From Mesoflavibacter profundi (GTDB taxonomy: Bacteria; Bacteroidota; Bacteroidia; Flavobacteriales; Flavobacteriaceae): DNA of 64,000 nucleotides. Of the stretch, positions 34,167 through 36,218 are shown one piece after another. The stretch is from positions 3,019,501 to 3,083,500 of the forward strand of contig NZ_CP061703.1 of NCBI RefSeq assembly GCF_014764305.1, written 5' to 3'. Position numbers and translations under genes: made by a program. Every line of letters begins with the position of its first letter. Positions within the stretch are counted from its first letter, which is position 1. The notes beneath the pieces are model-generated. The model worked only from the letters and a program-made list of their open reading frames with translations, was not told where the DNA came from and searched no databases.

Positions 34167-34838
34167 ATGAGCATAAAACATAACTTAGATACTATAAAAC
34201 AATCCTTACCAGAACATGTTACACTTGTAGCTGTATCTAAAACAAAACCTGTAAGTGATCTAATGGAAGCTTACAACGCTGGACAACGCATTTTTGGAGA
34301 AAATAAAATCCAAGAAATGGCAGATAAGTATCAAGAAATGCCAAAAGATATCAAATGGCATATGATTGGTCATGTACAGCGTAATAAGGTAAAATATATG
34401 GCTGAGTTTGTGGATTTAATTCATGGTGTAGATTCGGTAAGATTGTTAGAAGAAATTAATAAACAAGCCTTAAAACACGATAGAATTATTAATTGTTTAC
34501 TTCAAATTAAAATTGCAGAAGAAGATAGTAAATTTGGAATGCGCATTAAAGATGCAGAAGAATTATTGCTTTCTGAAACCGTTTCAGAATTAAAAAATAT
34601 AAACATCGTTGGTCTTATGGGAATGGCAACATTTACAGATAATAAAGACCAAATAAAAGAAGAGTTTTTACGCCTAAAATCTGCTTTTGAAGATTTAAAA
34701 ACTATTAAGACCTCAAATTGCAACTTACAAACCATAAGTATGGGAATGAGTGGCGATTACAAATTAGCTATAGAATGCGGTAGTACAATGGTTCGCGTTG
34801 GAAGTAGTATTTTTGGCGCTAGAAATTATAATAATTAA
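34167..34838 (+). CDS. YggS family pyridoxal-phosphate homeostasis protein
   Basis: The 223-residue protein is a monomeric PLP-binding barrel of the YggS/PROSC family. It keeps the PLP-lysine motif VTLVAVSKTKPVSDLMEAY near residue 20, the GENKIQEM block near 45, WHMIGHVQRNKVKYM near 67, and the phosphate-binding tail MGMSGDYKLAIECGSTMVRVGSSIFG near 190. It stores and delivers PLP rather than acting as a racemase. It starts 13 bp behind DUF1015, and its stop is 15 bp from the probable ATT start of the exonuclease gene. Confidence 0.95.
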   Translation: MSIKHNLDTIKQSLPEHVTLVAVSKTKPVSDLMEAYNAGQRIFGENKIQEMADKYQEMPKDIKWHMIGHVQRNKVKYMAEFVDLIHGVDSVRLLEEINKQALKHDRIINCLLQIKIAEEDSKFGMRIKDAEELLLSETVSELKNINIVGLMGMATFTDNKDQIKEEFLRLKSAFEDLKTIKTSNCNLQTISMGMSGDYKLAIECGSTMVRVGSSIFGARNYNN

Positions 34839-34853
34839 AAAACATATATTTCT

Positions 34854-36218
34854 ATTTATACGATAGTCGACATAGAAACTACAGGCGGTAAATACAATGA
34901 AGAAGGTATTACCGAAATTGCTATTTATAAATTTGATGGACATAAAGTTGTAGATCAATTTATAAGTTTAGTTAATCCCGAAAGAGAAATTCAACCTTTC
35001 GTGGTTAACCTTACTGGGATTAATAGCAATATGCTTAAAAATGCACCTAAGTTTTATGAAGTTGCTAAACGTATTGTAGAAATTACCGAAAACACCATTT
35101 TAGTAGCTCACAATGCAAAATTTGATTATCGCATACTTCGTACAGAATTTAAACGATTAGGTTTTGATTACGAACGTGAAACCTTATGCACTGTAGAGCT
35201 TTCTAAAGATTTGATTCCAGACCAAAAAAGCTATAGTTTAGGTAAACTTGTACGCGCTTTAGGAATACCAGTAAGCGATAGGCATCGTGCTGCAGGAGAT
35301 GCAAAAGCGACGGTTAAATTATTTCAGTTATTATTAGATAAAGACACTAATAAAAACATTATACAAGAGTCCGTTAGAAAAGAGCCTAAATTTCAAATGG
35401 AACCAAGGTTAATAGATATTGTACAAGATTTACCTAGTGAAACTGGCGTGTATTACATTCATAAATCGGACGGAGAAATTATTTACATAGGTAAAAGTAA
35501 AAACATAAAAAACCGCGTTAATCAACATTTTACTGGCACAAATCCAAAGTCAAAAAAAATACAAAGCTTAGTTGCTGCTGTTACTTTTGAAAAAACAGGA
35601 AGCGAATTAGTTGCGCTTTTAAAAGAAAGTGAAGAAATTAAAAAAACAAAACCTGCTTTTAATAGAGCGTTAAGACGTAATATTTTTACGCATGCACTTT
35701 ACAGCTTTACAGACCATAAAGGGTATATAAATCTAACCATTGATAAAGCCTATAAAGACAAAGCTAATATTACAACGTTTAGTAATAGACAAAGCGGTAA
35801 GCACTTTTTAGAAAAAGCTATAGAAGACTATAATCTTTGCCAAAAACTAACAGGAATTTATAAAACCAACACTAGCTGTTTTAACTACGAAGTTAAAAAA
35901 TGTGAAGGCGCTTGTATACAAGAAGAATCTGCAGAAGACTACAATAATCGCGTTAATCAATTATTAAAAAAACATAGTTACGACCAACAAAATATGGTGA
36001 TTATAGATCGAGGTCGTGATGTTGACGAACGTAGCGCTATTTTAATTAAAAATGGCATTTTTAAAGGGTTTGGCTTTTACAGTTTAAACTATCAAATTAA
36101 TAATTTAGAAATTTTGGAATCTATTATCACACCAATGGAAAATAATAGAGACCAACAACATATAATCCAAAGCTATTTAAGACGTAATAAACGTCTAAAA
36201 ATCATTCAATTACCATGA
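34854..36218 (+). CDS. DnaQ-like exonuclease fused to a GIY-YIG nuclease, probable ATT start
   Basis: The frame has no ATG, GTG, CTG or TTG upstream of 35001, but the DEDDh exonuclease motif I (IVDIETTGG) is encoded at 34863-34889. The conserved start of this family, MYTIVDIETTGG, would begin at the ATT at 34854, so I choose it (454 residues). A GTG at 35001 would delete the catalytic Asp/Glu motif. Residues 1-165 form the exonuclease (LVAHNAKFDYRIL near 87, HRAAGDAKATV near 150). The GIY-YIG domain starts near 200 with TGVYYIHKS and IIYIGKSKNIKNRVNQHF. This exonuclease/UvrC-N-like fusion is known in Bacteroidota and may act in repair. The stop overlaps the next gene by four bases. Confidence 0.72.
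   Translation: MYTIVDIETTGGKYNEEGITEIAIYKFDGHKVVDQFISLVNPEREIQPFVVNLTGINSNMLKNAPKFYEVAKRIVEITENTILVAHNAKFDYRILRTEFKRLGFDYERETLCTVELSKDLIPDQKSYSLGKLVRALGIPVSDRHRAAGDAKATVKLFQLLLDKDTNKNIIQESVRKEPKFQMEPRLIDIVQDLPSETGVYYIHKSDGEIIYIGKSKNIKNRVNQHFTGTNPKSKKIQSLVAAVTFEKTGSELVALLKESEEIKKTKPAFNRALRRNIFTHALYSFTDHKGYINLTIDKAYKDKANITTFSNRQSGKHFLEKAIEDYNLCQKLTGIYKTNTSCFNYEVKKCEGACIQEESAEDYNNRVNQLLKKHSYDQQNMVIIDRGRDVDERSAILIKNGIFKGFGFYSLNYQINNLEILESIITPMENNRDQQHIIQSYLRRNKRLKIIQLP

Follow-up and report, generated by a model that had tools for sequence, protein, structure and literature searches.

A conserved non-AUG start codon without a canonical alternative in a predicted exonuclease/GIY-YIG nuclease gene of Flavobacteriaceae

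We report that a gene of Mesoflavibacter profundi encoding a predicted two-domain nuclease has a non-AUG start with no canonical alternative, a conclusion reached by sequence and conservation rather than by start mapping. The start is almost certainly the ATT at position 34854 of the window (the whole 64,000-nt stretch of DNA that was analysed). A preliminary description of this DNA had pointed to the ATT; the comparisons described here add that the non-AUG start is conserved throughout a clade in which ATT, ATC, ATA and TTG interchange, with no ATG in 128 genes. We consider it likely that this reflects conserved weak initiation of the kind found in infC and pcnB, which would limit synthesis of the nuclease. 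The features discussed are as follows.

34167..34838, + strand: gene with an ATG start, which we take to be yggS-like; located upstream in 79 of 80 relatives (the best 80 of 384 confirmed loci)
34854..34856, + strand: predicted ATT start codon of the exonuclease/GIY-YIG gene, aligned with ATT, ATC, ATA, TTG, GTG or ATG starts in 183 distinct orthologues
34854..36218, + strand: predicted DEDDh exonuclease and GIY-YIG (Cho/UvrC-like) protein of 454 amino acids, based on Pfam domains and invariant residues
34857..34862, + strand: codons 2 and 3, TAT ACG, without an out-of-frame ATG
35001..35003, + strand: GTG, the first canonical start codon and the likely choice of a gene finder; it encodes the conserved internal residue V50 (PFVVNLTGIN)

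Position of the start codon

The stop-to-stop frame of the nuclease gene (34839-36218, + strand; preceding stop at 34836-34838) is open and intact, and its codons from 34839 read AAA ACA TAT ATT TCT ATT TAT ACG ATA GTC GAC ATA GAA ACT, with the second ATT at 34854. Reading the frame codon by codon, we found no ATG, GTG, TTG or CTG between the stop and the catalytic motif IVDIETTGG, as the preliminary description had stated. It had also warned that a gene finder starting at 35001 would lose the active site, and this holds, since the first canonical codon, GTG 35001, lies downstream of the motif. The Pfam RNase_T match begins at residue 9 of the stop-to-stop frame, which corresponds to profile position 2. 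Two ATT codons precede the motif in frame, at 34848 and 34854. We chose 34854 on two grounds: ATG, TTG or GTG stands at this column in 76 of the 183 distinct orthologues and one codon before it (as TTG) in two more, 78 in all, and the residues before 34854 mostly vary among relatives; those after this codon are largely invariant. Alignment with the starts of relatives thus bears out ATT at the expected position.

We read the start codon of relatives mechanically, as the codon five before the Asp of the motif. Among 80 relatives, the best 80 of 384 confirmed loci, the start is ATT in 51 (Mesoflavibacter zeaxanthinifaciens, L005, and 50 more), ATC in 16, TTG in 11, ATA in two and ATG in none. 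A wider family search drew loci from the upper part of the 284 genomes with a match, with distant family members under-sampled; of 219 parsed loci, 21 were removed as being paralogues or class-level homologues and 15 because their first 600 bases duplicate those of another locus, which leaves 183 distinct orthologues. Their starts are ATT (80), TTG (46), ATG (23), ATC (20), GTG (7) and ATA (5), in addition to the two shifted TTG codons. An ATH codon (ATT, ATC or ATA) therefore starts 105 of 183 genes, and 102 of the 180 that remain after clustering at 95% nucleotide identity, a set of near-identical make-up in which tree neighbours are still related. No ATG, GTG, TTG or CTG occurs back to the preceding stop in 96 of the 105 ATH genes; the other nine have an in-frame TTG, GTG or ATG upstream, at least 8 codons away. 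Downstream, none of the 105 has a canonical codon until past the motif, at a distance of 18 codons or more.

As a control, we examined yggS in the same 80 loci. All 77 readable starts are ATG: 76 coincide with the aligned codon, and the other is no more than 8 codons away. Two more matches were cut, and one locus has no yggS. The downstream gene was uninformative as a control: a usable start could be read in only 31 of 80 loci, in eight of them at the aligned codon and in the other 23 as an ATG up to 8 codons away. For a paralogue found in six family loci, inspection by eye places the nearest start, ATG in five and GTG in one, at the aligned codon or a few codons before it. Among 15 class-level homologues, the aligned codon is ATG in six (L168, L173, L175, L177, L178 and L181) and a non-start codon in nine.

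The codons after the start carry a further signal. A TAT at codon 2 followed by a codon 3 beginning with G creates an out-of-frame ATG overlapping codon 2. This combination is found in 0 of 84 ATH genes and 0 of 42 TTG genes (0 of 126 jointly), but in 1 of 7 GTG genes and 6 of 22 ATG genes (Fisher 4e-5 for ATH versus ATG genes, with kinship ignored). TAC precedes G in all 84 ATH genes concerned; with any other base at the start of codon 3, the ATH genes have TAC 11 times and TAT 10 times, and elsewhere in the same genes TAT is chosen before G in 274 of 449 cases (61%). Codons 2 and 3 of the M. profundi gene form no out-of-frame ATG, because codon 3 (ACG) starts with A rather than G. TAC before G is favoured in ATG-start orthologues too (16 of 22), and Bacteroidetes genes in general are described as depleted of AUG around their starts (PMC6847099); hence, the signal is partly non-specific. 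As we read the alignment, the missing out-of-frame AUG strongly backs the position of the start and, more modestly, the weakness of the codon.

Start codons across the clade and their leaders

We built a quick protein tree (single-matrix model, start column left out, rooted on five class-level rows), in which the M. profundi gene belongs to a clade of 128 genes. Their start codons are ATT (76), TTG (27), ATC (20) and ATA (5), with neither ATG nor GTG represented. The 55 orthologues outside the clade have ATG (23), TTG (19), GTG (7), ATT (4) and shifted TTG (2). By parsimony, the clade has undergone at least 34 changes of start codon. We counted 18 to 20 ATH-to-TTG changes, each requiring two base changes, and only 4 to 6 gains of ATH from ATG, the direction being insecure in both cases. 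Given so few gains, most of the 105 ATH starts are inherited and not independent.

We then simulated neutral change among seven initiators (ATG, GTG, TTG, CTG, ATT, ATC and ATA), with an ATT root and the composition of four-fold sites, assuming the branch lengths of the tree and equal fitness of the seven codons. At rates giving 28-39 changes (34 observed), the probability of finding no ATG was 0.001-0.009 (1,000 runs each) and that of finding 27 or more TTG was 0.003-0.015. The two outcomes coincided in no simulated run at any of the seven settings. In a coarse first simulation, ATG had been absent from 3 of 60 and 1 of 60 runs at the lowest rate, and from 0 of 60 at six higher settings. ATG is described as normally favoured at starts (PMC5622118), which makes its absence from the clade more telling. 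As far as the tree and alignment tell, a non-AUG codon is evolutionarily conserved across the 128 genes. Since TTG is common among them, the selected trait may be "not AUG" rather than AUU. Counting against a conserved weak start are the 23 ATG genes within the family and the four ATT genes outside the clade.

Bacteroidia ribosomes are described as forming no Shine-Dalgarno pairing and as relying on upstream adenines, low structure and the absence of AUGs (PMC9976891). Only 3 of 105 ATH leaders contain Shine-Dalgarno-like 4-base strings, and G accounts for 0-12% of the bases at every position between -15 and -6; extended Shine-Dalgarno guidance of the Staphylococcus type is not found in these leaders. 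The fraction of A at -13 to -11 is 0.68-0.83 in ATH genes versus 0.17-0.30 in ATG-start orthologues, with kinship ignored, and is high in ATH genes both near and far from the yggS stop. It is possible that this A-rich segment compensates for the weak codon, and we regard it as a lead only. We also considered a Kozak-like A at -3 and rejected it, as it is not enriched in ATH genes (0.41 versus 0.62 in yggS). Likewise, a hairpin masking the start was not retained: in a single-sequence fold of 121 nt the z-score is -0.84, and 41 of 200 shuffles are as stable. Separately, 12 of the 219 parsed loci, duplicates included, have tandem TTTTAAC heptamers (two or more copies) in the 80 nt that precede the start (L015, L017, L021, L030, L043, L052, L093, L107, L109, L112, L118 and L155). 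None occurs in the 64,000-nt M. profundi window.

The predicted nuclease

The predicted protein matches Pfam RNase_T (117.7 bits) and GIY-YIG (39.3 bits), both above gathering scores. Residues D6, E8, H86, D91, H144, D149, Y211-I212-G213 and E258 are invariant in 33 sequences, as are Cys 329, 342, 350 and 354, which form a four-Cys segment after the GIY-YIG domain; Pfam gave no match, to a C-terminal UvrBb domain or to any other, beyond frame residue 272. Relatives of solved structure, identified by sequence, are PolC-, DinG- and DnaQ-type exonucleases and UvrC N-terminal domains. The predicted structure is weak (mean pLDDT 69.6, pTM 0.38).

The combination of DEDDh exonuclease, GIY-YIG domain and four-Cys segment would place the protein near the Cho-like+Exo nucleases, which share an N-terminal exonuclease, a GIY-YIG domain and a four-Cys segment (PMC1564403). 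That variety was called Actinobacteria-specific in the same paper, whereas the present gene is from Flavobacteriaceae; the terms "Bacteroid", "Flavobacter" and "Cytophaga" are absent from the paper's main text. One proposal for the mycobacterial fusion has the GIY-YIG domain making nicks and the exonuclease degrading the damaged strand (PMC1564403). The best score against NCBIfam PRK07883.1 is 283.6 bits, versus a curated cut-off of 495, and the protein is thus not assigned to this equivalog. We did not adopt a defence role from PADLOC, whose matches, PDC-S48 (best) and then CRISPR-associated DEDDh, cover mainly the exonuclease domain. Three relatives (L166, L170 and L171) have open frames of 367-374 codons in which the match ends at residue 272-277, and these seem to be without the C-terminal third.

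Proposed weak initiation, its alternatives and significance

We propose that translation of the nuclease begins at AUU 34854, presumably with formyl-methionine, giving the N-terminal peptide (f)MYTIVDIETTGG.... Without Shine-Dalgarno pairing, the weak codon would be found through its A-rich, AUG-poor surroundings. Selection would keep initiation weak and the amount of this two-domain nuclease, which could be harmful in excess, small; a limit of this kind is reported for E. coli pcnB. Binns and Masters (2002) reportedly found that pcnB, with its AUU start, is translationally limited. Like the present gene, pcnB encodes a nucleic-acid enzyme, and its AUU start is reported to limit the amount made, but initiation there is aided by a Shine-Dalgarno sequence, whereas here AUU, AUC, AUA and UUG interchange clade-wide with no such pairing. 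To our knowledge, conserved AUU, AUC or AUA starts are known for few bacterial genes, and those described are in bacteria with Shine-Dalgarno pairing. The gene for IF3, infC, which the preliminary description had named as a comparison, likewise has an AUH start (AUU or AUA), and indeed starts with ATA in the same genome. infC regulates itself; no such loop is expected for the nuclease, since it is not an initiation factor. IF3 discriminates against non-AUG starts of this sort in known cases, and by analogy nuclease output may fall as IF3 rises.

In E. coli, infC and pcnB start with AUU (PMC1780047, PMC9410913); in Staphylococcus reporters, output from AUU and AUA starts was about 10% of that from AUG, with ccpN reaching as much as 30% in rich medium (PMC13009471). 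From these cases we infer a low-output start for the nuclease; the "low or regulated translation" anticipated in the preliminary description would fit this reading. The non-canonical starts of Staphylococcus cvfC1 (AUU) and ccpN (AUA) are conserved too, but extended Shine-Dalgarno motifs guide the ribosome there (PMC13009471), whereas the ATH leaders studied here are rarely Shine-Dalgarno-like. A literature search covering mostly open papers, in abstracts and passages, found no mention of the start of the exonuclease/GIY-YIG gene.

We surveyed 2.06 Mb of the genome (1,676 called genes) for coding ahead of the canonical start, using a codon score. infC ranked first and the nuclease gene fourth, a placing that we take as more than chance; of the two entries between them, the second is a fragment of a gene and the third resembles noise. 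We judged infC and the nuclease gene to be the two clear cases of coding before any canonical start. The infC gene (G000:C1:2327268-2327831, L184) lies outside the window, and its ATA start was assigned by conservation; the codon is ATA in 26 of 27 readable family relatives and ATC in the other (28 of 30 loci were readable, namely its own and 27 of 29, with one of 30 genomes lacking a match). The survey scripts required 10 or 12 codons of coding signal before the canonical codon, and tend to miss genes in which an internal ATG, GTG or TTG occurs early. A FemAB-like gene (G000:C1:338555-339568, minus strand) was listed low in the 10-codon survey and was absent from the 12-codon survey; the number of ATH-start genes is therefore a lower bound. 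This gene has no canonical start before its conserved N-terminus, a weak TIGR03019 match below cut-off, and no Pfam match. Of its 29 loci, 27 were readable (L294-L320), and nine of these, including its own (ATT), have an aligned ATH whose four preceding codons include no canonical start. By eye, the remainder comprise nine ATG, four TTG, one GTG, one ambiguous and three unclear starts. The fragment ranked second in the survey, G000:C1:2211208-2211450, lacks a canonical start codon, and its match to the four-helix-bundle protein TIGR02436 begins at profile position 29; it is probably a truncated or broken gene.

These three genes raise the possibility of a dynamic switch that senses IF3, with infC (ATA), the nuclease (ATT) and the FemAB-like gene (ATT) forming a regulon that follows the supply of IF3 or 30S subunits. 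This idea overlaps with a throttle set by a weak start, and the two are not mutually exclusive. We hold it tentatively and think it somewhat doubtful: the near-constant ATA of infC and the nine FemAB-like ATH loci are in its favour, but TTG replaces ATH in 27 of 128 clade members, and FemAB-like loci elsewhere include ATG, TTG and GTG starts. With similar reserve, we can imagine a Flavobacteriaceae AUH-start regulon (infC, the nuclease and the FemAB-like transferase) whose output would be set by IF3, without Shine-Dalgarno sequences, via A-rich leaders and the removal of competing AUGs.

An alternative to selection for weak initiation is that ribosomes finishing yggS re-initiate on the nuclease gene by coupling, such that any weak codon is tolerated and the start drifts without a regulatory role. 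The near-constant position of yggS upstream is consistent with this, as is the spacing, with 42 of 79 nuclease starts within 30 nt of the yggS stop (range 5-435 nt, median 23). However, the share of ATH is independent of this distance (36 of 42 at up to 30 nt, 23 of 26 at 31-70 nt, and 9 of 11 above 70 nt), which speaks against mere tolerance, and drift among initiators should have produced ATG, whose absence had a probability of only 0.001-0.009 in the neutral simulation. We therefore regard re-initiation with drift as unlikely. Frameshifting or read-through from yggS was ruled out, given the variable spacing and the fact that ATG-start orthologues begin at the same codon.

It is highly improbable that the functional product begins at GTG 35001, without the first exonuclease motif and with the upstream stretch untranslated, even though this is the first canonical codon of the frame. 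Codons 2-49, compared position by position and ungapped with 103 ATH-start relatives, differ by 0.103, 0.026 and 0.468 per site at codon positions 1, 2 and 3; judged by this pattern, the stretch between ATT 34854 and GTG 35001 is evolving as protein. In addition, D6 and E8 are among the invariant residues, and V50, also invariant in 33 sequences, falls inside the protein in the 23 orthologues that start with ATG at the column of 34854. Misreading of ATG as ATT in sequencing can be set aside, as can decay of the gene, since the frame is intact and 105 of the 183 distinct orthologues, drawn from many assemblies, have ATT, ATC or ATA at this codon; the orthologue comparison suggested in the preliminary description excludes error.

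At every ATH start, a gene finder limited to ATG, GTG and TTG would lose the N-terminal stretch (49 residues here) that carries the first exonuclease motif. The roughly 180 orthologues form a natural series in which AUU, AUC, AUA, UUG, GUG and AUG occupy one site in bacteria that do not use Shine-Dalgarno sequences. This series opens two questions: how ribosomes find a non-AUG start without Shine-Dalgarno pairing, and whether the nuclease must be sparse.
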